Assembly (NCBI RefSeq): GCF_036567765.1
Contig: NZ_DATCTU010000008.1
Span: 1-64,000 of the forward strand
Length of the DNA: 64,000 bases
DNA from: Pseudobacteroides sp.
Lineage (GTDB): Bacteria > Bacillota > Clostridia > Acetivibrionales > DSM-2933
Reading direction: 5' to 3'
Within the stretch, counting starts at the first letter, position 1; each line of letters opens with the position of its first letter. Below are positions 35,997 through 48,289 of the stretch, one piece after another. The position numbers and the translations under genes are program-made. A model generated the notes under the pieces. The model had not been told where the DNA came from, did not search any database, and was given only the letters and a program-made list of their open reading frames with translations.

Positions 35997-36129
35997 TTTA
36001 TCACCCTTATTATTTATTATTTGAAATGGAAAAAAGTCTATCATAGCTTAAACATATGCGTTGATCATATTTTTCGTGCATAGCCAACGAGAAATTTTAA
36101 ATGTAATATATTAGCTGCTACCAAAGTAC

Positions 36130-36215
36130 AAGGGGCTGTTGCATAAATGAACAGAACAAAATCATGAAATGATTTTGTCAACTTTGATTAAGCAGAATTT
36201 TACAACAGCACCCTT
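36130..36215. repeat. Small inverted-repeat element (MITE-like)
   Basis: The ends AAGGGGCTGTTG (36130-36141) and CAACAGCACCCTT (36203-36215) are imperfect inverted repeats. Inside is a perfect 10-bp hairpin ACAAAATCAT/ATGATTTTGT (36156-36178). The size (86 bp) and GGGCTGTTGCA-like end fit a non-autonomous element derived from an IS. It fills the gap between the exopolysaccharide operon and the gene at 36263; the hairpin could also end the latter's transcript. Confidence 0.5.
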
Positions 36216-36262
36216 AAAAAGAATAAGAGATATTATATTTATAAAATTAGAAGTATATTATC

Positions 36263-36595
36263 TTATTCTCTGCAGCAATGGTGTTTAATCTTAGTACATT
36301 TGCATAGTATACCAACAATTATGCCAAGTATTATTGCCAGTACAATAGACAATATTGCAAACTTGACTGTAAAGCTTAAGCAGTTAAAATAAACCAGAAG
36401 ATCATCAATGGTCTGTATTAATTTGATAAACCTAAGCCAAAAAAGGTTGATAATAAGTAGTACCAAATCAAACATTAATGCTCCCCAAATAAACTTAGAG
36501 GTGTATTTCGTTCTGTGTCTTGAAACGAATTCACTAGCTGTCATGGCAAAAAGTCCAGGCACTAATAAAATTAGTAAATAGAATAAAATTAACAT
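36263..36595 (-). CDS. Small membrane protein, three segments
   Basis: The 110-residue protein has hydrophobic segments at about 1-18, 36-55 and 75-97 and a short Cys/His tail (CKCTKIKHHCC) that might bind a metal. The 5' region is AT-rich, and the gene is divergent from the STAS-like gene. No family recognised. Confidence 0.55.
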   Translation of the reverse strand: MLILFYLLILLVPGLFAMTASEFVSRHRTKYTSKFIWGALMFDLVLLIINLFWLRFIKLIQTIDDLLVYFNCLSFTVKFAILSIVLAIILGIIVGILCKCTKIKHHCCRE

Positions 36596-36799
36596 TAGAT
36601 CCTACCTCTATAGAATAAGTTTCCTAGATTATAATATGTAATTCACAGGGATTTGTTCATGTTTATGAAATTATTGTAAACTACACTATAACCTGTAACA
36701 ACAACTTAGTAGTTATTTATTATTTACTAAAATATAATGTTCAGTAAACATAAAATCTTGCCGATATATAGTATATATATTCTTGAAGGAGTAACAATT

Positions 36800-37207
36800 A
36801 TGGATATGTTGAGGTTTACCAAAGTCAGTATGAATAATTCCTATGAGCTGTCATATGATGAGTCTTCCAATTGCTTATTTGTAGCTTTATTTGGATTGTG
36901 GGACAAAATGTCACAATTGGACTATTATATTGACGATATTAAAGCTACCATATCACATTCCAAGCCTAGCTTTAACATCATATACGACTTGACACAGTAC
37001 AAGGGCTGTATAACCCAATTGACTAACCTTCAGGTAGAGGCTCAGAATTTATTACTGGCGGCTGGATTGAATAAAACTGCTGTATTGATAAAGGAAAATC
37101 AGCTATTAAAAGCTTCTGTCGAGATTATATTCCAAATGTCCGGCATATCTGCGACTTATTTCAGCAATATCGGTACTCTTCAAAATTGGCTGGATAGCTT
37201 TAAATAA
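36800..37207 (+). CDS. STAS/SpoIIAA-like single-domain protein
   Basis: The start is the ATG at 36800, eight bases after AGGAG; 21 upstream codons have no site. The 135-residue product has the alternating strand/helix pattern of SpoIIAA-like proteins: SNCLFVALFGLWDKMSQLDY, NIIYDLTQYKGCI and a C-terminal helix pair. Such domains usually work in partner binding or membrane association. No kinase partner is next to it. The assignment is tentative. Confidence 0.5.
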   Translation: MDMLRFTKVSMNNSYELSYDESSNCLFVALFGLWDKMSQLDYYIDDIKATISHSKPSFNIIYDLTQYKGCITQLTNLQVEAQNLLLAAGLNKTAVLIKENQLLKASVEIIFQMSGISATYFSNIGTLQNWLDSFK

Positions 37208-37236
37208 AGAACAAAACCATAATATCCTAGAAATTT

Positions 37237-37276
37237 AAAAAACTGTAAGATGGTCCTAAACCACCTCACAGTTTTT
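37237..37276. terminator. Bidirectional terminator
   Basis: AAAAACTGTAAGATGG pairs with CCACCTCACAGTTTTT, giving a stem with A-runs on the left and T-runs on the right. It lies between the convergent genes 36800-37207 (+) and 37306-39726 (-) and can serve both. Confidence 0.75.
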
Positions 37277-37305
37277 ATGCTGCTTTATGAAATAATAGTT
37301 ATACC

Positions 37306-39726
37306 TTAAAAAATTACTTCAGGATAATTTGAGGATGTCATACTGAAATGCTTTGCTATTATCAGTATATCGCTCATATTTATTGAACCGTCGGCATTAA
37401 AGTCTTGCTCTGCAACATACTTTGAAGAGTCAGTTGTAGAGTTGAAGGCTTTTGCTATTTCTATGACGTCAGCCATGTTTATTGATCCATCCTGTACTCC
37501 GCTTCTTGTGATGTCACCTGCCCAAATATCAACCGGTGATGACGATGTACCGATGATTGCATTTTTATTTGTAGGAATGTCTTGAATTATCCTTGTAAGA
37601 TACCCGGGTTTACTAATCTTAAGATCAAATGTATCGGAATTCAGTATTGGATTCCTTATTTCAAAGTATCCATTCTCGTCTGTTATTGCATATATAGATA
37701 CATCACCCGAAACTTCTATCTTAAATCCTGCCTTTACTTTTGAAGCAGCTGAGGTTGAATATGTGAAATCAGGTGAGATATAACCCTTTGTTTTAGGTAA
37801 AGTGCTCGAAGGCACTGGAGTATTTGTAGGCTTTGATGTACTTGGTACAGGAGTTTCGCCTGGCTCAAGGCCTGCCACCTTTACCCCATTCTTGTATATT
37901 GCTATTTTGTCTGTCCTAGTATATTTGGTTGTAGTGAGATCGGTAATAGAGTAATCATTTGCTGCATTCCATTTGCCGCTGTAATTTGCCAATGCAAACT
38001 GGATGTAGCTTCTTGAGTATAGCTTTTCATTAGGGAATGAAAACTCTATGTAATAAATATTCTTAGCCTTATCAAAGACTTTAACTTCGGAATACTTAGC
38101 TCCCTTTATGGGTGAATAATAAATGTCCGCTTTTGTAGATGTTGGGTCAACATTAGCACTTACCAACTCCGATAAGTCCATGAAATATCTGAATGATAAA
38201 CCTGTCTCAAATCTAGGCGGTGCAGTCAGAATGTTATACATATTTAAATCAATAACGGTACTTTGAGCATCCTGCTTGTAAATCTTTGCTTCAGCATAAT
38301 AAAGGTCAGGCTCGCCTTCTATTCCTGGTGTTGCCTCAGGCTTTTGTCCTGCACCATAGTATTTCGACATGCCTGCAAGGGCACCTACAAGACCTGCATT
38401 GTAATCAAGACCTGTTTCGGTATAAACATATTTATCTATATCGTCATAATAAACACCGCTTTTATCAGGTCCTCCTACCAAAGCACCATATAGAATATGT
38501 CTTTCAGGTGCAACCTTCTTTTCATCTGCCGGAGGTCCTTCAAGCATACCGCTTGCCGCCCTGTGATGAGGGAATTTAGGATATTTTTCTCCAAAACCTA
38601 CCATGTAAGACATGTTGTTGGGATTTTTACCGAGAATGAAGTCTATCTGGCTTTTTGCATAGTCAAGATATTTCTGATCCGGTTTGATTTTATAGTATGT
38701 AAGTGCGAGCATAGCTTCTGCTGCAGGGTATTTTGCAACACCCCAACTGTCAAGATAGCTTAAGCCGCCAGGAACTTTTGATAGGGTATTCATCCAGTAA
38801 TCAAGGTTTTCTTCTACTATTGTGATGTATTTTGGCTTTTTGGTTACTTCTGCCATCTTTAATGCAACTCCGCCAAATATATCGTCCCAGCAGTTTGTCC
38901 AATGGTTTTGGTAAGTATTGTCTCCACCCAGACCTTTTTCATCCATGAGCTTTTCTATATCGTCCATGTATTTCTGTTCATTTGTAGCAATATAGAGCCA
39001 TATACCTCCCCACATGAGTTCATCATAATAGCTTCTTGGAAGATAGTAGCTCTGACCTTTGCTGTTACCTCTGTAAGCCTGACCGAATGCATACAAATCC
39101 TTTGCATATGTGAGGCATTTTGCAGCATATGTTGGATCGCTGTCTTTCATATTGAGATATGTAAGTGCCAAAGTAGCGGCTGCGGAACCGGCTACATCAG
39201 AGCCAGGGTTTGAAGGTGTTGCAGCATAATATGCAGGCCTGGTATAAGTTTGAAGCTCCGGAGGACCCCAGAATTTGTGGTCTTCGTCACCATCACCTAA
39301 CTGGTAATAGAATGTTGTTTTGTTTGGAAAACACTTCATAAAATAATCCGCAAAATGTTTCACAATATTAAGCATGTACTTGTCCTGCCCCTTTTCGATA
39401 AAGGTGTCCTTGAACTCATAATAGGCCCAAGCTAATGCAGAAGCAGAAGTACACTGAGGCAAACCAAACTTCACATGGTCACCGCAGTCATGGAAGCCAC
39501 CGGTCAGATCAAGTCCCACATCCTTACCATCCTCTATGTGGCAAGGTCCGCGCCATTTGATTCTGTTATTGCCAGCGTCAGGTCCGCACCAGTTTGCCTC
39601 ATAGAAAAGAATGGATTTTGCAAATGCGTCAACATAGTTAAGGCCACCTGCTGCAGATGCAGTTTTTGGAATTATGCTTGCGAGATAAACAAAAAGCAGA
39701 GTGATAATTAAACATTTTTTCTTCAC
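37306..39726 (-). CDS. Cellulosomal GH9 endoglucanase with CBM3c-like module and dockerin
   Basis: The 806-residue secreted enzyme has a signal peptide (1-25) and a GH9 catalytic domain (about 28-460). The latter has GGFHDCGDHVKFG with the catalytic Asp80 and Asp83, and the general acid in YTETGLDYNAGLV near 430. A CBM3c-like module (475-620) and a Thr/Pro linker (about 630-652) follow. Next come a carboxypeptidase-regulatory-like (CnaB-type) domain (GYISPDFTYSTSA onward) and a C-terminal type I dockerin with two Ca loops (SINMADVIEIAKAFN and SINMSDILIIAKHFS). The GH9-CBM3c layout is that of processive endoglucanases. The start is GTG after AGGGGG. Confidence 0.92.
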   Translation of the reverse strand: MKKKCLIITLLFVYLASIIPKTASAAGGLNYVDAFAKSILFYEANWCGPDAGNNRIKWRGPCHIEDGKDVGLDLTGGFHDCGDHVKFGLPQCTSASALAWAYYEFKDTFIEKGQDKYMLNIVKHFADYFMKCFPNKTTFYYQLGDGDEDHKFWGPPELQTYTRPAYYAATPSNPGSDVAGSAAATLALTYLNMKDSDPTYAAKCLTYAKDLYAFGQAYRGNSKGQSYYLPRSYYDELMWGGIWLYIATNEQKYMDDIEKLMDEKGLGGDNTYQNHWTNCWDDIFGGVALKMAEVTKKPKYITIVEENLDYWMNTLSKVPGGLSYLDSWGVAKYPAAEAMLALTYYKIKPDQKYLDYAKSQIDFILGKNPNNMSYMVGFGEKYPKFPHHRAASGMLEGPPADEKKVAPERHILYGALVGGPDKSGVYYDDIDKYVYTETGLDYNAGLVGALAGMSKYYGAGQKPEATPGIEGEPDLYYAEAKIYKQDAQSTVIDLNMYNILTAPPRFETGLSFRYFMDLSELVSANVDPTSTKADIYYSPIKGAKYSEVKVFDKAKNIYYIEFSFPNEKLYSRSYIQFALANYSGKWNAANDYSITDLTTTKYTRTDKIAIYKNGVKVAGLEPGETPVPSTSKPTNTPVPSSTLPKTKGYISPDFTYSTSAASKVKAGFKIEVSGDVSIYAITDENGYFEIRNPILNSDTFDLKISKPGYLTRIIQDIPTNKNAIIGTSSSPVDIWAGDITRSGVQDGSINMADVIEIAKAFNSTTDSSKYVAEQDFNADGSINMSDILIIAKHFSMTSSNYPEVIF

Positions 39727-39768
39727 ATAAAATACCCCCTATTTTAAAATTATCTATGACTTAAGATA

Positions 39769-39797
39769 ATCTTACCATATTTTATTTTTTGCTACAA
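39769..39797 (-). promoter_or_regulatory. Possible promoter of the GH9 gene
   Basis: On the minus strand, TTGTAG (39792-39797) and TAAGAT (39769-39774) are 17 bases apart, about 40 bases upstream of the GH9 start. Both boxes are imperfect. Confidence 0.35.
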
Positions 39798-39876
39798 TTG
39801 TAATGGGTGTATATGTAGGGGCAAAGCGAGATTTTTGCAATTTTCGATAGCAATTATACTTGTTTTCAAATGCTTA

Positions 39877-39905
39877 TTTCAAAATATTACAAAAAACTGT
39901 ATAAT
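39877..39905 (+). promoter_or_regulatory. Probable promoter of the RiPP operon
   Basis: A perfect TATAAT (39900-39905) lies 17 bases after a weak TTTCAA (39877-39882). The precursor ATG follows 55 bases later, with GGGAGG eight bases before it. Confidence 0.5.
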
Positions 39906-39960
39906 TAAAAAGGGAGTCTAAATTTCTGGAAAAGAATTTTAATATTAGGGAGGTTTAAAT

Positions 39961-40194
39961 ATGGATAAAGAATTGAGAACTTCAGCAGAAATGACTGATG
40001 AAGAATTAATGGACATGTTTGGTGGTTTTGAAGAAACTCCAGTTGTTACAGAGCCTATAATTGTTAAGCCATTATACGGTATCAAACCGCCTATTGACGT
40101 AAAGCCATTATACGGAATTGTTGTAAGACCCTTATACGGAATTAAGCCTATGTATGGAATTAAACCTTTGTATGGCATAAAGCCTACTGAGTAG
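39961..40194 (+). CDS. RiPP precursor with double-glycine leader and five XYG core repeats
   Basis: The 77-residue peptide has an acidic leader, MTDEELMDMFGG (residues 11-22), that fits the double-glycine export rule: hydrophobic residues at -12 (M11), -7 (L16) and -4 (M19) before G21-G22. The 55-residue core has P(L/M)YGI five times, with Tyr at 39, 51, 59, 65 and 71, mostly spaced by Lys-Pro. There is no Cys, Ser-rich or Trp-based core, so lanthipeptide or thioether chemistry is unlikely. XYG is the site cut by radical SAM spliceases, which remove the Tyr-derived tyramine unit and leave an alpha-keto-beta-amino residue. This chemistry is inferred. The start is fixed by GGGAGG. Confidence 0.85.
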   Translation: MDKELRTSAEMTDEELMDMFGGFEETPVVTEPIIVKPLYGIKPPIDVKPLYGIVVRPLYGIKPMYGIKPLYGIKPTE

Positions 40195-40448
40195 TATTAG
40201 TCTTTTTTATAATAGAAGTATTAATTATATAGAAGATTTATGTTAGATACTTACATAAAAGGAAAACCAGTTGTCCGGAATATTTAGACTATCAGGTGCA
40301 TGGTACGGGTATTTAAATGAGCAGCAATAAAGCTTTATTAATACAGCCATGCACCACCCCAAATTTTAAATATCTAGGAAATGCGACAATAATCAAGGGT
40401 GTAAAATGCAAGAAATTCTGTTATTCAAATTTTTGCGGGAGGGGTATT

Positions 40449-41996
40449 ATGAGTATAGATTACAGGCCAATTACAGGTGTGTGGGAGATAACAATGGGAT
40501 GCAACATGAGGTGCAAGCACTGCGGTTCTTCCTGTGAAAATAGATTAAGCGGAGAGCTTACAACCGACGAGGCCTTAAAGCTTTGTGATGACTTGGCTGA
40601 GCTGGGATTTAAGTGGCTTACACTGTCCGGAGGTGAGCCCACAACCAGAAAAGACTGGGATATCATTGCAAAAAGGCTTAATGATAATGGGGTTATACCC
40701 AACATGATAACAAACGGCTGGCTGATAGATGATGAGATAGCCAAAAGAGCAAAGGCTGCGGGAATAAACACTATAGCCATAAGCCTTGACGGTCTACAAA
40801 AGACTCATGATTTTATCAGGCGTGAGGGTTCATATGAAAGAATAATGAATGCCTTGGACATATTAGTGGCAAATGAAGTAAACTGCTCTGTTATTACGAC
40901 TGTAAACAAAATGAATCTTGGTGAACTGGAAGAAATGCACAAAATCCTGTGTGAAAAAGGAATATACGGCTGGCAGTTCCAATTGGGGCTTCCTATGGGG
41001 AACATGGTCAAAAACAGTGAGCTTGTGGCACAGCCTCATCATACCGATGATGTTATTAATTTCGCCTATGATGCCATGCAAAAGGGTGGCGTGGATATAC
41101 AACTGGCCGACTGCATGGGGTACTTTAACAAAAAGGAAATTGAAGTAAGGAAAAAATCCGATTCATCCGATGAGTACGACTGGAACGGCTGCGGAGCCGG
41201 AAAGTATGTTATGGGAATACTTCATAATGGCGATATAGTGGGATGTACTTCTATAAGAGACAGAAACTTCATAGAAGGAAATATTAAAGAAACACCTATA
41301 CTTGATATTTGGAACAATCCTGAAAAGTTTGCCTGGAACAGGAATCTTACTAAAGAAATGCTTCAGGGAACCTGCCAAAAGTGCCAGTATGGCAATCGCT
41401 GCCACGGTGGATGCGGCAATACAAGGCTTACAATGGAAGGAACAATATACGGGCAAAACAGATACTGTTCCTACAATCTTGTCGTTAAGAAGGCTGAAAA
41501 GCAATTTGAGGGTATTAATGACATTGATGAGTTAATGAATAAAGCTCGCAAATTTGCACCACAAAATCAGCACCAGCTTGCGGAAATATTGCTGTCAAAG
41601 GTTCTTTCCCTTGACCCTGAAAATGAAGAAGCATTATCATTATACGGATATACTTCCTTTATGCTGGAAAACTACAAAAATGCTGTGGAAGCAAATGAAA
41701 AGCTGCTTCAAAAGGACAGCAGCAACATATACGCAAATAAAGGTTACGGACTCTCCATTTCAAGGCTTGGGATGGTTGATGAGGGCATAAAATATCTTAA
41801 AAAGGCAATTGAATTGTCAAAAGGTACTTACCTGGACCCATACTATGACCTTGCAGTGGTTTATTTTGAAAACGGAAAACCGGCCAAAGCTATGGAAGCC
41901 TTAGAGGAAGGGTTTAAGGTTTCTGATGAGTTTGAAAAGAGCTATCGGGATTTTTACAATCTTCTACAAGAACAGGTTAAGGAAGGACAGGCATGA
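40449..41996 (+). CDS. Radical SAM/SPASM peptide maturase with C-terminal TPR (splicease candidate)
   Basis: From the ATG at 40449 (GGGAGGGG just upstream) the enzyme has 515 residues. The radical SAM cluster motif CNMRCKHC (Cys18, 22, 25) is near the N-terminus; SGGEPTTRKDW follows. A SPASM region (about 255-365) has the Cys set starting CGAGKYVMG, then C-TSIRD and CQKCQYGNRCHGGC, for auxiliary Fe-S clusters. Residues ~385-505 form three to four TPR repeats (e.g. ALSLYGYTSFMLENYKNAV), unusual for maturases and perhaps the precursor-binding part. A longer in-frame start at 40317 adds 44 residues with four Cys but has no ribosome site. It overlaps the exporter by four bases. Confidence 0.88.
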   Translation: MSIDYRPITGVWEITMGCNMRCKHCGSSCENRLSGELTTDEALKLCDDLAELGFKWLTLSGGEPTTRKDWDIIAKRLNDNGVIPNMITNGWLIDDEIAKRAKAAGINTIAISLDGLQKTHDFIRREGSYERIMNALDILVANEVNCSVITTVNKMNLGELEEMHKILCEKGIYGWQFQLGLPMGNMVKNSELVAQPHHTDDVINFAYDAMQKGGVDIQLADCMGYFNKKEIEVRKKSDSSDEYDWNGCGAGKYVMGILHNGDIVGCTSIRDRNFIEGNIKETPILDIWNNPEKFAWNRNLTKEMLQGTCQKCQYGNRCHGGCGNTRLTMEGTIYGQNRYCSYNLVVKKAEKQFEGINDIDELMNKARKFAPQNQHQLAEILLSKVLSLDPENEEALSLYGYTSFMLENYKNAVEANEKLLQKDSSNIYANKGYGLSISRLGMVDEGIKYLKKAIELSKGTYLDPYYDLAVVYFENGKPAKAMEALEEGFKVSDEFEKSYRDFYNLLQEQVKEGQA

Positions 41997-44176
41997 TATT
42001 TAAGAAAATTTTGAGCTTGACCAAAAGGTACCCTGTAGTTAGGCAGCATGACGTAACAGACTGCGGTGCCGCGTGTCTTGCTTCAATTGTGAAATATTAC
42101 GGCGGAAATATCTCAATAGCCAGGCTAAGAGAATACTCAGGTACAGGTAAAGAAGGTACAACAGGGTTTGGGCTTGTGAAGGCATTGCAAAGACTTGGGT
42201 TTACTGCAAAGGGCCTTAAAGCTCAGCTTGAGCAGTTGGTAAATGAGGAATTTCCGCTGATTGCACATGTGATAAAAGACAATGACGGTAAAAAGCTTGA
42301 GCACTATGTTGTGGTTTATAAAATAGATGATAGCAGTATAACTTTCATGGACCCTGCTAAAGGAGTTGTCAGGGAGAAACTTTCCCTTTTTTATGATGTT
42401 TATACGGGAAGGGTAATATCCTTAAAGCCGGGAGATAGCCTTGACATAAAAACAAGTAACAACAGGGCTTTATTTGGGTTGATAGCATCCATAGTTAAAG
42501 TACTTAAGCTCTCCATTTTTATTATTGTTTTGATATCCTTTGTATTTACAGGGCTTGGAATATTAAGCACCTATTATATGAAGTATTTGTTTGATACGGT
42601 TATCGGAGAAGGGGTATTTAATCAGCTTACTTACGTATCCCTTTTCTTTATCGGTATTTTCTTTTTCCAGCTCCTTTTAGGGATATTAAGAAGCCTTATG
42701 GTTACCAAATTGGCATTAAAGATAGATAAAGAGCTTATGCTGAGCTATTTTAAGCATGTATTAAGGCTTCCCATGAGCTTTTTTATTTCCAGGAAGGACG
42801 GCGAGATAATATCCAGGTTCATGGATGCCTCGAAAATCCGTGAAGCCATATCAGGCATAACCCTCACCCTTTCCATCGACACAGTTCTTGCTATAGCTGG
42901 CGGAGTTATTCTGTTTATGTCAAATAGGTTTCTCTTCTTTATAACATTATGCATCATGGTGCTGTATGGAATAACTGTGTTGTGTTTTATAAGGCCCCTA
43001 AGAAAAATAAACACGCTTCAGATGGAAAGCAATGCACATCTTACCTCTCATCTTGTTGAGAGCTTAAATGGTGTTGAAACATTAAAGTCATTCAATGCTT
43101 TAAATGAGACTGATAAGACTGCGGAAAAAAACTTTGACGATCTCATAAAAAAAGTATATAAAGGCAGCATACTCTACTCTGTGCTGACTACCCTTACATC
43201 TGCCATCAATGGTCTTGGTACCATATTGATACTTTGGTTCGGTATTATTGAGATTTCTACAGGAAAGATGTCTACCGGCGATCTTCTTGCCTTTAATGCA
43301 TTACTCCAATACTTTCTTACCCCTGTCAAAAATCTCATTGACCTGTCATCGGAGATACAAACAGCTGCAGCTGCATCAAGCAGGCTTGGGGAAATATTAG
43401 AAATAGAAGGGGAAAAATACATAGACCCTGAAAGAAGTGTAATACCTGACACCTTGTCGGAGGATATTGATATAGACAGCATAACATTTAGATACGGATA
43501 TAAACGGCCTGTAATAGAAAATCTGTCCCTCCACATAAATGCGGGAGACAAGGTTGCTGTTGTAGGTGGCAGCGGATCGGGAAAAACAACACTTGCAAGG
43601 CTGATTATGAATTATTACCTTCCAGAGAAGGGCACAATAAAGATCGGTGGAATTGACTTAAGAAATATACCTTTAGAGACTATCAGGAAAAAAATTGCAT
43701 TCATATCCCAGGATGTGTTTCTTCTAAGCGGCACAATAGCAGATAATATAAGACTTGGCAATCCTCATGCCTCCATGGAGGAAGTGATGGAAGCGTCTCA
43801 ACATGCAAACTGTCATGAGTTTATTGAGAAGCTGCCACTAAAGTATGAAACCTACATAGAGGAAAACGGTTCAAACCTTTCAGGTGGTCAAAGGCAGCGA
43901 ATTGCTATTGCCAGGGCCTTCTTGCTAAAGCCTGATGTTCTAATTATGGATGAGGCCACAAGCAACCTTGACACCATCACCGAAGAGGCCATATCAAATA
44001 CCCTCGACCTTTTTGATAAAAAGGTTACAAGGATCATAATAGCTCATCGCCTATCTACAATAAAAAGATGCCGGAGAATATTCGTACTTGAAAACGGCAG
44101 AATATCCGAATCCGGCACCCATGAAGAACTCCTTTTGAATAACGGGCTATATAAGGAAATGTTTAATTTATTGTAA
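41993..44176 (+). CDS. C39-peptidase ABC exporter (PCAT) for the RiPP
   Basis: The 727-residue protein has an N-terminal C39 peptidase domain with catalytic Cys24 (TDCGAACL), His104 (EHYVVV) and Asp120 (MDPAKG). Six membrane segments (about 165-430) follow, then an ABC ATPase with VGGSGSGKTTLARL, LSGGQRQR and LIMDEATSNLD. PCAT proteins cut double-glycine leaders and export the core in one step, which fits the GG at residues 21-22 of the precursor. ATGA overlap with the maturase gene shows coupling. All active residues are present. Confidence 0.93.
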   Translation: MIFKKILSLTKRYPVVRQHDVTDCGAACLASIVKYYGGNISIARLREYSGTGKEGTTGFGLVKALQRLGFTAKGLKAQLEQLVNEEFPLIAHVIKDNDGKKLEHYVVVYKIDDSSITFMDPAKGVVREKLSLFYDVYTGRVISLKPGDSLDIKTSNNRALFGLIASIVKVLKLSIFIIVLISFVFTGLGILSTYYMKYLFDTVIGEGVFNQLTYVSLFFIGIFFFQLLLGILRSLMVTKLALKIDKELMLSYFKHVLRLPMSFFISRKDGEIISRFMDASKIREAISGITLTLSIDTVLAIAGGVILFMSNRFLFFITLCIMVLYGITVLCFIRPLRKINTLQMESNAHLTSHLVESLNGVETLKSFNALNETDKTAEKNFDDLIKKVYKGSILYSVLTTLTSAINGLGTILILWFGIIEISTGKMSTGDLLAFNALLQYFLTPVKNLIDLSSEIQTAAAASSRLGEILEIEGEKYIDPERSVIPDTLSEDIDIDSITFRYGYKRPVIENLSLHINAGDKVAVVGGSGSGKTTLARLIMNYYLPEKGTIKIGGIDLRNIPLETIRKKIAFISQDVFLLSGTIADNIRLGNPHASMEEVMEASQHANCHEFIEKLPLKYETYIEENGSNLSGGQRQRIAIARAFLLKPDVLIMDEATSNLDTITEEAISNTLDLFDKKVTRIIIAHRLSTIKRCRRIFVLENGRISESGTHEELLLNNGLYKEMFNLL

Positions 44177-46142
44177 AAGTCAGGTTGTATATGTTGGGTG
44201 AACTTGGCTTCGGACAGAACAGGGTCAATGTATTCCCTTCTTCTCTAAGCCTTCCGTAATCAACCAGGGGATCTGAGAAAAACTTATCCTGATACTCTGT
44301 ACTGATCATTTTCCAATCACTCCAATTTGACGATGCTGATGCTGCGGCAATTCGAAGATTTGGCAGTATTGCGTAAATATTGTTTGATTTTGAAAATGCC
44401 AGCTTGCCTCTGAAGTTTAAGACTGAAGGGAAAGTAGTGTTTGTTCGGTGCCATACACCGCTTGCATCCCTCCAATAATGGAAGTAAACAGTCTTGTTCC
44501 TTGCGTTGGTAAAATTGGAGTCGTCAGCCTGGGAATCAGGCAAATGGGATAAAAGAACATGTATCTGCCCGTTATTATCCACCATTTGTGCTTCCTGGTT
44601 GATAAGCCCCCTGTTTTGATTAATTGTCCAAACCTTGACCCCCGTCGTATTTTTATTCACAAAACTTGAACCGGTAACTGCTACGGTTGTTCCGGCATTA
44701 TTCTTCCAGGTACGGCCGTTATCGTCACTATAAATATACATAAGATCGTGGTTGGTTGTTGCATCAGGGGTTTCACGCCAGCACCAGGTTTCATGGAGCC
44801 TGCCGTTTTTGTCATAGGTAATGCCATGGGCGTAGGCATTATTATTCTGGGATATCCCATCTATATATTTACCTAAGGAAGTCCATTTTTTAGTTGATCC
44901 GTCATACTCCAACAGATACTGGTCTCCGCTTCCGCTCTGGCCATATCTGTATTCAAAGAGAAGCTTGTTGGACGGTGTTGTTATAAATCTTGGGTATGTA
45001 ACAAGTGTTATTTTATTACCAGGTATGAGACTGCTGGTAACTGCACCGAAAGTTGACGCATTCCATGTAAAGTTTTGAGGGTTTGCAGCAAGGCCTGGTA
45101 CCGATACACGATAGTGAAGGTCATTGCCGTGGTGGTCAAAAGCAAGGTGAATTGTTCCGTCCTGAGGGCAAATTCCTATAGATATTGTGTTATGTGCGTC
45201 AACGGCTGACAGAGGGTGGTCTGTAAATTCGAATTTTGCCCACTCGCCGTTCGGTAATTTCCTTCTGCACATTACAACATGCTTGTTTGTGTTCCAGAAG
45301 GCTGAATACTGGTATCCATTGTAAGATACTATTCCATCCTGCTGAAAGGATTCTCCGTTTAAATATCCTCCGTATGATACGCTTGTAAGCCCTGAATATG
45401 TCATTAGTGAGTCTTCTGTTTTAACTAAAGACGGCATAACATTTTGTATTGTAGGTGTTGGTGATTTGGTTGGAGTCGGAGTCCAAGCTGGAGTATTTGT
45501 GGAAGTTGGAGTGTAGGTTGAAGTTGGAGTATAAGTTGAAGTTGGAGTACCTGAAGGTATTGATGTTATATAGCTTGCAATTATTACGGGATACTCTGAC
45601 GAAACTTTATTAAAATTGGCGGCTATAAGAATCAGGTCTGTCATGTTGATAGCATTATCTTTATTTAAATCATAATCTGCCTTATACTTCGCATCACCTT
45701 TAACTGCGTTGAATACCTGTGCCATAAGTATTATATCCGACATATTTAAAGAACCGTCGCCATTAAAATCTCCAGGCCATAAGTATATCGGTGAACTCTC
45801 GGTTCCCAGCTGCAAACTACCTGTTAACTGAATGCTTTGTGAGCTTCTTGAAAGGTATCCTGTCTTTATAAATTTTATCACGTAGCCGTTTGCGTTTGCA
45901 GGAACATTAGGAATTGTAAAGTAGCCATTTTCATCGCTTAAGGCCCATAACCCTGTGCCGGATATTTCTACTCTGGTCCCTGAAAGGATAAGCTGGGCAG
46001 CAGATACAGGGTATGTAAAACCGCTGTTTACATAGCCGGAAATGGAGTTCCCTGCCCCATCTGCGTTTACAGGTACAAACAAGCCGGTAATTAATGCTGA
46101 TACTATCAATAATATAACAAATAGATTTTTCTTGTGAAACAT
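44163..46142 (-). CDS. Dockerin-bearing BNR_4 beta-propeller (polysaccharide lyase/hydrolase-like)
   Basis: The 659-residue secreted protein has a signal peptide (1-27), a carboxypeptidase-regulatory-like domain (from ISGYVNSGFTYPV) and a type I dockerin (GSLNMSDIILMAQVF and NAINMTDLILIAANF). A long TPTSTYTPTS linker follows, then a ~430-residue BNR_4-type propeller with SFQQDGIVSYNGYQYSAFW, DAHNTISIGICPQDGTIHLA and FDHHGNDLHYRVS. The His-rich DHHGN block resembles PL24/PL25 ulvan-lyase-like propellers, so it may be a lyase or a glycosidase on an acidic glycan; this is inference. The dockerin at the N-terminal side is uncommon. Its 3' end overlaps the exporter's by 14 bases. Confidence 0.8.
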   Translation of the reverse strand: MFHKKNLFVILLIVSALITGLFVPVNADGAGNSISGYVNSGFTYPVSAAQLILSGTRVEISGTGLWALSDENGYFTIPNVPANANGYVIKFIKTGYLSRSSQSIQLTGSLQLGTESSPIYLWPGDFNGDGSLNMSDIILMAQVFNAVKGDAKYKADYDLNKDNAINMTDLILIAANFNKVSSEYPVIIASYITSIPSGTPTSTYTPTSTYTPTSTNTPAWTPTPTKSPTPTIQNVMPSLVKTEDSLMTYSGLTSVSYGGYLNGESFQQDGIVSYNGYQYSAFWNTNKHVVMCRRKLPNGEWAKFEFTDHPLSAVDAHNTISIGICPQDGTIHLAFDHHGNDLHYRVSVPGLAANPQNFTWNASTFGAVTSSLIPGNKITLVTYPRFITTPSNKLLFEYRYGQSGSGDQYLLEYDGSTKKWTSLGKYIDGISQNNNAYAHGITYDKNGRLHETWCWRETPDATTNHDLMYIYSDDNGRTWKNNAGTTVAVTGSSFVNKNTTGVKVWTINQNRGLINQEAQMVDNNGQIHVLLSHLPDSQADDSNFTNARNKTVYFHYWRDASGVWHRTNTTFPSVLNFRGKLAFSKSNNIYAILPNLRIAAASASSNWSDWKMISTEYQDKFFSDPLVDYGRLREEGNTLTLFCPKPSSPNIYNLTFTIN

Positions 46143-46531
46143 TATAACTCCTCCTTAACTAAAACTTAGATAAACTGAAATATTAAAAGATTTATCATTC
46201 GTGCTTTAATATATAAATTACGAAAAATCGATTACATTCCGTTTTCGCACGTATCCTTGAATCGTTGGTTACATGCTCGCCGTAATGTAAGATTTTTATC
46301 GTAATTTATTTAGTTATATTTTAACATATAATTTATGTCAAATTCATTAATATAGATTTTTAAGTAAAAATTACACCTTAGATTCTTCATATGCATATTA
46401 GAAGTATTATTTTATTTAACACTTTTTCACCGTTTGACAATCTTTTCATTATTAATTACCATATGATATAATTTAAATAATAGTATAAGAAACTAAAAAC
46501 CATAATTTTCTTAAAGGGGTGTATGTAAAAT
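46143..46531. other. Intergenic region between divergent dockerin genes
   Basis: The region contains a long imperfect inverted repeat (46214-46308, listed separately). It also has promoter-like boxes for the GH26 gene: TTGACA at 46434-46439 and TATAAT at 46467-46472. These are 27 bases apart, too far for one sigma-A promoter, so the true -35 is unclear. Confidence 0.4.
46214..46308. repeat. Long imperfect inverted repeat
   Basis: A 28-base left arm (46214-46241, opening TAAATTACG) pairs with the right arm (46281-46308, closing CGTAATTTA) with only a few mismatches and bulges, around a ~39-base loop. There is no T-run suitable for termination. It could be a small mobile element or a structured leader or operator shared by the two divergent cellulosome genes. 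Confidence 0.6.
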
Positions 46532-48289
46532 ATGGGGGAATTTTTTAGAAGAGTACTGTCTTTGTTAACAGCCATTACAATGGCTTGTTCAGTACTTTTA
46601 ACCATGCCTGCAACAGTTCAGGCAGCCAATTCAGTACCTGTAGATGTTGAAGCGGAAGCTTGTACTCTCAGCAACGGTGCTGTTGTCGTTACCAATGTCT
46701 ATGGGACTAATTATCCTGGGTACTCGGGAAACGGATTTGTTTGGGCAACCAATGCAGGTACAATATCGCTGGAGGTAAATGTTCCTAAAGACGCTATGTA
46801 TGAGCTTAAAACAAGATGTTGGATGTATTTAGGAAAAGAGGGCGAAACCAGGCTTCAGGCTGTTACCGTCAACGGCGTATCATACAGCGATTTCTATATT
46901 CCAAATAAAAATGGATGGATTGATTACAGTTTTGGATTTTTCTTTCTTAAAGCAGGTACAGCAAAAATTGAGATCGGCACTTCCGGAAGCTGGGGCTATA
47001 TACTTTATGATAAAGTGAAATTTGACTATGCAGACATGCCAGATCTTAAAATCGACCCGGCTACATGTGATACTAAAGCAACTTCTGAAACAAAGGCTCT
47101 TAAAAAATACCTCACCAGTGTATACGGCAATAAAATTATTTCCGGTCAACAAGAAATTTACGGCGGCGGAAATAACGGAAATATGGAATTGGAATTTGAT
47201 TACATATATGATAAAACAGGCAAATTGCCTGCAATCAGAGGCTTTGATTTTATGAATTACAATCCTCTATACGGATGGGAAGACGGTACAACAAATCGCA
47301 TCATCGACTGGGTAAAAGAGAAAGGCGGAATTGCAACAGCATGTTGGCATATCAATGTTCCATCTGATTTTACAAGCTATAAAATCGGTGATAAATTGGA
47401 TTGGACAAAATGTACATATAAGCCGACAAAAAGCTTTAACACGGCAAACTGTCTAGATAAATCAACAAAGGAATACGCTTACCTGATGCTTGCAATTGAT
47501 GATCTTGCCAAACAGCTCCTCATTCTTCAGGAGGCAAATGTTCCTGTGCTTCTGCGCCCTTTCCATGAAGCAGAAGGCAACAACAACACCGATGGCTCAG
47601 GAGCATGGTTCTGGTGGGGTACCGGTGGTGCGGAGGTTTACAAAGAGCTATGGAAACTTCTTTACACTACACTAACTGAAAAGTATGGTATTCATAATGC
47701 TATATGGGAAGTAAATCTTTATCTAAATGCAAATTCAGCACAATGGTATCCTGGAGATAAATATGTAGATATCGTTGCATATGATAAGTATGAAGGATCA
47801 CCTTATACATGGAAAACAAGTGCAGCTACAACAGCATTTCTTAAACTTGTAAATTACACAAACGATACAAAGATGGTTGCAATGACTGAAAATGACGTTA
47901 TTCCCGATATTCAGAACATGGTTAATGAAGGTGCTTGGTGGCTGTATTTCTGCCCATGGTATGGTGAGTTTATTACCAGTCCAAGCAAAAATGATCCGAA
48001 ACTTCTCAATACTATCTACAACAGCCAATATGTAATTACGCTGGATGAACTGCCGCCAAATTTATATGAATTCACACAAACTGTTACACCAACGCCAACA
48101 CCTGCAAACAGTCTTGACTTAAACCATGACGGTGCCATAAACATGGCAGATGTCGTTATTTTGGCGAAAGTATTTAATTCAGTCCGTGGTGATTCAAAAT
48201 ATGTTGATGCATATGACCTGAATAAAGACGGAGCCATAAATATGTCGGATGTAATAATGCTTGCATCTAAATTCAACACTGTTGTTTAA
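46532..48289 (+). CDS. Cellulosomal GH26 beta-mannanase with N-terminal CBM35-like module and dockerin
   Basis: The 585-residue enzyme has a signal peptide (1-32). A CBM35-like carbohydrate module (about 35-165, VDVEAEACTLSNGAVV at its start) precedes the GH26 domain (about 180-520), with acid/base Glu346 in RPFHEAEGN and nucleophile Glu453 in VAMTEND. A short TPTPTP linker and a type I dockerin (GAINMADVVILAKVF and GAINMSDVIMLASKF) end the protein. It hydrolyses mannan backbones and is assembled onto scaffoldin through the dockerin. Unlike the GH9 and BNR proteins it has no regulatory-like domain next to the dockerin. Confidence 0.92.
   Translation: MGEFFRRVLSLLTAITMACSVLLTMPATVQAANSVPVDVEAEACTLSNGAVVVTNVYGTNYPGYSGNGFVWATNAGTISLEVNVPKDAMYELKTRCWMYLGKEGETRLQAVTVNGVSYSDFYIPNKNGWIDYSFGFFFLKAGTAKIEIGTSGSWGYILYDKVKFDYADMPDLKIDPATCDTKATSETKALKKYLTSVYGNKIISGQQEIYGGGNNGNMELEFDYIYDKTGKLPAIRGFDFMNYNPLYGWEDGTTNRIIDWVKEKGGIATACWHINVPSDFTSYKIGDKLDWTKCTYKPTKSFNTANCLDKSTKEYAYLMLAIDDLAKQLLILQEANVPVLLRPFHEAEGNNNTDGSGAWFWWGTGGAEVYKELWKLLYTTLTEKYGIHNAIWEVNLYLNANSAQWYPGDKYVDIVAYDKYEGSPYTWKTSAATTAFLKLVNYTNDTKMVAMTENDVIPDIQNMVNEGAWWLYFCPWYGEFITSPSKNDPKLLNTIYNSQYVITLDELPPNLYEFTQTVTPTPTPANSLDLNHDGAINMADVVILAKVFNSVRGDSKYVDAYDLNKDGAINMSDVIMLASKFNTVV

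Follow-up and report, generated by a model that had tools for sequence, protein, structure and literature searches.

An operon for a peptide with five XYG sites

The subject of this analysis is a three-gene operon of Pseudobacteroides sp. (contig NZ_DATCTU010000008.1), which lies on the forward strand at positions 39961-44176 of the 64,000-nucleotide stretch of DNA analysed here (the window). It encodes, in this order, a precursor peptide, a radical S-adenosylmethionine (SAM)/SPASM maturase and a C39 peptidase-containing ATP-binding cassette (ABC) exporter (Table 1). Open reading frames (ORFs) and family models above cut-off confirmed these three parts, which had been named in an initial annotation made from the sequence alone. 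The ATGA coupling of the last two genes was confirmed as well, as the start codon of the exporter at 41993 overlaps the stop codon of the maturase. Judged from the comparisons below, the locus is predicted to work like a spliceotide system.

Table 1. Features of the operon, in coordinates of the window
Feature	Position	Strand	Description
Precursor peptide, 77 aa	39961..40194	+	double-glycine leader of 22 residues, then a core of 55 residues that holds five P(L/M)YGI sites
Hairpin between precursor and maturase	40295..40354 (approximate)	+	arms GGTGCATGG / CCATGCACC, then CCCC; predicted fold
Radical SAM/SPASM maturase with C-terminal TPR domain, 515 aa	40449..41996	+	ORF open from 40317, but translation more likely begins at 40449
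PCAT1-like C39 peptidase-containing ABC exporter, 727 aa	41993..44176	+	family models; closest solved structure

Translation of the first ORF bore out the predicted peptide with its five motifs behind a GG leader. The leader ends in TDEELMDMFGG and is followed by the sites PLYGI, PLYGI, PLYGI, PMYGI and PLYGI. All five tyrosines of the core are part of YG, and five YG were not reached in any of 200,000 shuffles of the core, for which the maximum was four. The description of the sites as separated by Lys-Pro holds for four of them, while the third is preceded by Arg-Pro; each of the seven basic core residues stands immediately before Pro. A sibling locus in the same genome encodes a second maturase (62% identical) and a precursor with five KYGI sites. 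Since no exporter was found near the sibling maturase, in about 6 kb on its upstream and 12 kb on its downstream side, a single exporter may serve both peptides of this genome.

The maturase exceeded the Pfam cut-offs for Radical_SAM, SPASM (40.6 bits, cut-off 21.5) and several tetratricopeptide repeat (TPR) models. Across 121 aligned relatives, the three cysteines of the CX3CX2C SAM-cluster motif and seven SPASM cysteines are invariant, and the residues N408, N416, K431 and D467 of the TPR part are conserved to 98-100%. An AlphaFold model predicts a confident TPR superhelix (residues 341-514) and a weak stretch at 300-344 (mean predicted local distance difference test score 77.2), which contains the late SPASM cysteines. 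In a Foldseek search against the PDB, the radical SAM part matched PqqE, anSME, SkfB and SuiB. Translation probably starts at the ATG at 40449: alignments with relatives about 510 aa long begin at this codon, GGGAGGGG lies just upstream of it, and the closest two relatives match the stretch before the ATG poorly and with numerous gaps; the alternative start at 40317 was rejected on these grounds.

Relatives of the maturase recur beside XYG precursors

In the literature, PlpX is described as a SPASM enzyme that, together with PlpY, excises tyramine from Xaa-Tyr-Gly (XYG) (PMC11002830). Splicing at this PlpXY site causes a loss of about 135 Da (PMC10533398, where 939 predicted splicease systems are mentioned), and several splicing events are possible in one precursor (PMC10373908). 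An XYG behind the leader, which is a feature of PlpX-type spliceotides, is present in the window precursor.

A relative of the maturase at E ≤1e-60 was found in 14 of 100 related genomes, and a scan of named genomes yielded 56 related loci (numbered L below) from Bacillota, Bacteroidota, Spirochaetota, Pseudomonadota, Thermodesulfobacteriota and others. Precursors were called by rule as ORFs of 30-140 codons with a hydrophobic residue at position -4 of GG and YG after GG, located up to 2.5 kb upstream or up to 4.5 kb downstream of the maturase. An ORF of this kind, with a double-glycine leader and a YG-bearing core, was present on the maturase strand at 32 of the 56 loci, versus a single one of the 56 for the other strand; for ORFs with at least two YG, the numbers were 19 and 0. 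Nine other dipeptides reached at most 10 of 56 loci on the same strand (LG). The pairing of maturase homologues with XYG precursors, for which the initial annotation had suggested a search, is thus recurrent. Two of the 32 positive loci (L054, L065) look like chance ORFs.

A PCAT-like exporter (PCAT, peptidase-containing ABC transporter) with at least 46% identity was found at 11 of the 19 loci with multi-YG precursors, two being cut by the end of the locus or contig. At least three sites occurred at 17 of 27 loci with a TPR-bearing maturase versus none of seven without TPR (Fisher p 0.007, uncorrected), in a comparison of 34 loci that were entered by hand and are not independent by descent. 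In Syntrophomonadaceae (L051, L058, L061, L076, L089), the leaders are long and, in our reading, of NHLP type, with only one AYGV or AYGI in the core, so that the TPR enzymes are linked to proteusin-like precursors as well.

Two further types of small ORF were seen beside relatives of the maturase. In Anaerobacterium (L055, 5648-5854), an ORF before the maturase gene carries repeated VYG/IYG followed by Ser/Thr and many cysteines; it has no double-glycine leader and would be an odd type of precursor. Agathobacter (L034, 4698-4904) and Blautia (L083, 5710-5904) share a near-identical small ORF that ends in PVMYGTGVRM and is followed by a TPR-less relative of the maturase; at the Agathobacter locus, a major facilitator superfamily transporter gene adjoins.

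A profile search returned 105 relatives of the precursor. As the profile was built from YG-bearing precursors, YG is partly built into the result that 102 of the 105 have two or more YG, with four as the commonest number (37 relatives); one relative has a single YG, and two without YG end early after the leader. The 409 YG sites are preceded mostly by Leu (210) or Lys (123), less often by Met (24) or Phe (13), and Gly is followed by Ile in 322 and by Val in 76. Pro stands before the site Leu in 180 of 210 cases and before the site Lys in 12 of 123, and Leu-type and Lys-type sites are mixed in 59 of the 105 precursors. Among 542 Lys/Arg residues in these cores, 205 precede Pro, compared to a shuffled mean of 14% and a highest value of 17.5% in 200 shuffles. 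A further 125 stand before YG, 27 are C-terminal and 185 are followed by other residues, so that open basic sites do occur in a part of the relatives.

Probable placement of the maturase beside TIGR04103 and GDL maturases

The best NCBIfam model for the maturase is TIGR04103 (224 bits), followed by TIGR03913 (GDL, 207.5 bits) and TIGR04133 (185.1 bits). The order was the same for five further group members or stand-ins, where these were part of the TPR group. TIGR04103 is presumably the family of PlpX and identical to IPR026482, to which a review assigns PlpX; in a search for papers with both names, the one paper found contains only IPR026482.

In a tree of 56 rows, the maturase falls into a group of 48 together with TIGR04103, GDL and TIGR04133 (support 89/92; 97/90 for the split just below), while MftC, NirJ, TIGR04053 and TIGR04347 fall outside. 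After removal of four rows that were long or doubtful, the group of the maturase itself (35 rows) reached 98/96. A WQxQ motif at one place of the alignment was present in all 36 maturase-group rows, all six TIGR04103 rows and all three GDL-type rows, but in only one of 11 others. This single row is from Tropicibacter and falls among the TIGR04103 relatives. In Tropicibacter (L096, 2168-4976), the radical SAM enzyme with WQxQ and GY is encoded directly before genes for a trypsin-like peptidase and an M23 peptidase.

As a stand-in for PlpX, we used a TIGR04103 locus on a Nostoc plasmid; no Pleurocapsa name was among the best 120 of 7631 matches to the Nostoc enzyme. The gene, which carries a TIGR04103 annotation, is preceded by that of a Nif11 precursor with GGRGSIALYGLPPELF as its end, and is itself overlapped at its end by a 71-aa ORF, which was taken as PlpY-like by position only and gave no NCBIfam match at E 1e-30. 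Like PlpXY of Pleurocapsa sp. PCC 7319, the window combines a radical SAM/SPASM enzyme with a leadered precursor carrying MYG/LYG. In contrast to PlpXY, the enzyme ends in a TPR domain, the search for a PlpY-like partner found none, the double-glycine leader is short, the core has five sites and a C39 exporter is encoded alongside.

The GDL maturases (TIGR03913) resemble the window enzyme in both WQxQ and GY, whereas the DUF1843 peptides of GDL systems differ from the window precursor in having no double-glycine leader. Among the small DUF1843 peptides beside GDL-type maturases (L036, 3064-3764; L035, 3159-3872), two of three in Azospirillum lipoferum and one of three in Aureibacter have YG near the N-terminus, so that XYG may be a site of action of GDL enzymes, too.

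Predicted splicing and competing explanations

The explanation we consider probable is that the TPR enzyme excises a tyramine unit at each of the five Leu/Met-Tyr-Gly sites and that the C39 exporter cleaves off the leader and secretes the product. The TPR domain of the maturase would hold the leader, taking over the role of PlpY and allowing a single enzyme to serve several sites. After loss of the tyramine unit at each XYG, the leader would be cut behind GG by the exporter, and a 55-residue peptide with up to five ketoamides, in units of Pro-Leu(or Met)-ketoamide-Gly-Ile, would leave the cell. By calculation, the monoisotopic mass of the core would fall from 6177.50 to 5502.16 on splicing at all five sites, at about 135.07 Da per site. 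According to a review, ketoamide-type residues from splicing confer potent protease inhibition. Such a product could be a multi-headed inhibitor directed at proteases outside the cell, its P2 position being taken by Pro and its P1 position by Leu or Met; the sibling peptide and CtA, the PCAT1 cargo discussed below, would mostly present Lys at P1.

Several points weigh against this reading. With 224 bits, the maturase stays far below the TIGR04103 cut-off of 725 bits and is not a member of that family by cut-off; the GDL cut-off (591.75 bits) is not reached either. Its own group received only 44/4 support in the larger tree, its union with the TIGR04103/GDL branch is not firm (92/82 in the reduced tree), and joining TIGR04133 to either side was not rejected (p-AU 0.224 and 0.0765). 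The GY motif, found at another place of the alignment in all maturase-group, TIGR04103 and GDL rows and in two of the 11 others (one of them TIGR04133), belonged to the search pattern behind the set of loci and is therefore partly built in, so that only WQxQ counts as free evidence. Moreover, 24 of the 56 loci have no precursor by our rule; nine of these have cut-off flanks, and at several of the 24 (for example L055, L056, L074, L083 and L085) the rule missed YG ORFs. A tblastn search with the Nostoc 71-aa ORF gave no PlpY-like stretch in window positions 36001-48000 or in the examined loci (best E 0.61). The argument for protease inhibition is drawn from the ketoamide chemistry and the statement in the review, and a target protease was not found; the support for predicted splicing comes from sequence. 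The spliceotide-like reading of the initial annotation is upheld in part, by the recurrent XYG precursors and by a predicted position nearest to TIGR04103/GDL maturases and apart from MftC and NirJ, but not by a firm placement in the tree or by a PlpY-like partner.

Three other explanations were weighed against predicted splicing. The exported peptide, whether spliced or not, might be a bacteriocin or a signal, with protease inhibition being incidental. The double-glycine leader and the exporter model TIGR01193, a subfamily named for bacteriocin export, fit this idea, but no immunity gene was recognised beside the operon, where the neighbours on both sides are opposite-strand genes for dockerin enzymes (GH9, BNR); we regard it as unlikely, though worth keeping in view. 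Alternatively, the maturase could act on the tyrosine of YG through a different radical reaction, for instance crosslinking of Tyr, cyclophane formation or oxidation, and the product would keep its tyrosines. PqqE, SkfB and SuiB, SPASM enzymes with other chemistry, are among the best fold matches of the maturase, and the missed TIGR04103 cut-off as well as the unrejected tree arrangements speak in the same direction. However, MftC and NirJ lie outside the group that joins the maturase with TIGR04103 and GDL, the constant Tyr-Gly with a variable preceding residue (Ile, then Val, being the commonest to follow) fits XYG, and crosslinking calls for a constant partner residue, of which none stands out. 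On balance, this chemistry seems rather improbable. Lys-Pro and Arg-Pro bonds are cut poorly by trypsin. Release of several small products from the spliced peptide by a trypsin-like protease, which the initial annotation had put forward and repeated cores of similar build might suggest, is very improbable and was rejected as the main route because Pro follows every one of the seven basic residues of the core, an arrangement also enriched in the relatives, and none of the genes in the operon was recognised as encoding a protease (by ORF list and Pfam; the genome at large was not searched for one).

The exporter and precursor are relatives of PCAT1 and its cargo CtA

The exporter exceeded the Pfam cut-offs for Peptidase_C39, ABC_membrane and ABC_tran and matched TIGR01193 with 600.4 bits (cut-off 523.85). 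Among solved structures, PCAT1 is the closest to it (E 3.1e-228), and a match was found between the precursor and CtA, the cargo of PCAT1 in structural work (E 4.8e-6), a link that had not been drawn before in the annotation of this locus. CtA of Acetivibrio thermocellus is, like the window precursor, a relative with YG sites, with four instead of five, namely KYGV three times and MYGI once. The CtA gene begins 102 bases after that of PCAT1, which directly follows a maturase gene whose product is 61% identical to the window maturase. The 90-residue CtA encoded there corresponds letter for letter to the end of the UniRef entry for CtA from Acetivibrio thermocellus ATCC 27405. The gene order differs, being maturase, exporter, precursor in A. 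thermocellus and precursor, maturase, exporter in the window.

In the PNAS work, as far as its text is accessible, CtA was prepared from inclusion bodies, and neither a maturase nor the word "radical" is mentioned; the eLife paper on PCAT1 and CtA has no mention of radical SAM, an operon or a gene cluster. A connection between CtA and a maturase was not found in the accessible PCAT1 literature. A review that treats PCAT1 and radical SAM states that the modified form of the PCAT1 substrate is not yet determined (PMC10885120). A review lists spliceotides among the ribosomally synthesized and post-translationally modified peptides processed by PCATs and cites Scott et al. 2022, so PCAT-linked spliceotides may already be described.

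Genomic setting and intergenic hairpin

The operon is flanked on both sides by genes for dockerin-bearing enzymes on the opposite strand: a GH9 enzyme with cellulose-binding and dockerin domains on one flank, and a BNR protein with dockerin, followed by a GH26 dockerin protein, on the other. The same locus is present in a second genome, which is placed in the genus of the window genome.

The hairpin between precursor and maturase was not significant compared to shuffles (z -1.35; equal stability in 18 of 200). The C run that follows it in the intergenic region (40195-40448) could pair with the Shine-Dalgarno site of the maturase. A search for RNA families in positions 39600-44400 gave a single match, taken as chance (23.5 bits, gathering score 88). 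Hairpins of different sequence occur at the same place in three relatives (L037, 5818-6000; L038, 254-533; L069, 5836-6000), and by eye no such hairpin was seen between precursor and maturase at L078, L039 and L093.

Implications

We tentatively extend the reading of predicted splicing to a broader proposal, which we hold to be possible but less than probable. A TPR-guided splicease would write five ketoamides into one chain and thereby yield a trypsin-proof, multi-headed inhibitor encoded among cellulosome genes; the residue before Tyr, Leu or Lys, would set the target, and CtA would have been studied without its true spliced form. As a conjecture, the peptide protects the secreted cellulosomal enzymes.

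If this holds true, one enzyme would install several ketoamides per chain with a TPR domain replacing a separate recognition protein, which would be of use in producing protease inhibitors whose P1 residue can be chosen. PCAT1, the best-studied peptidase exporter, would gain its missing biosynthetic partner, and its natural cargo would be a spliced peptide. Of direct value is that the cargo of PCAT1 now has a named candidate maturase.

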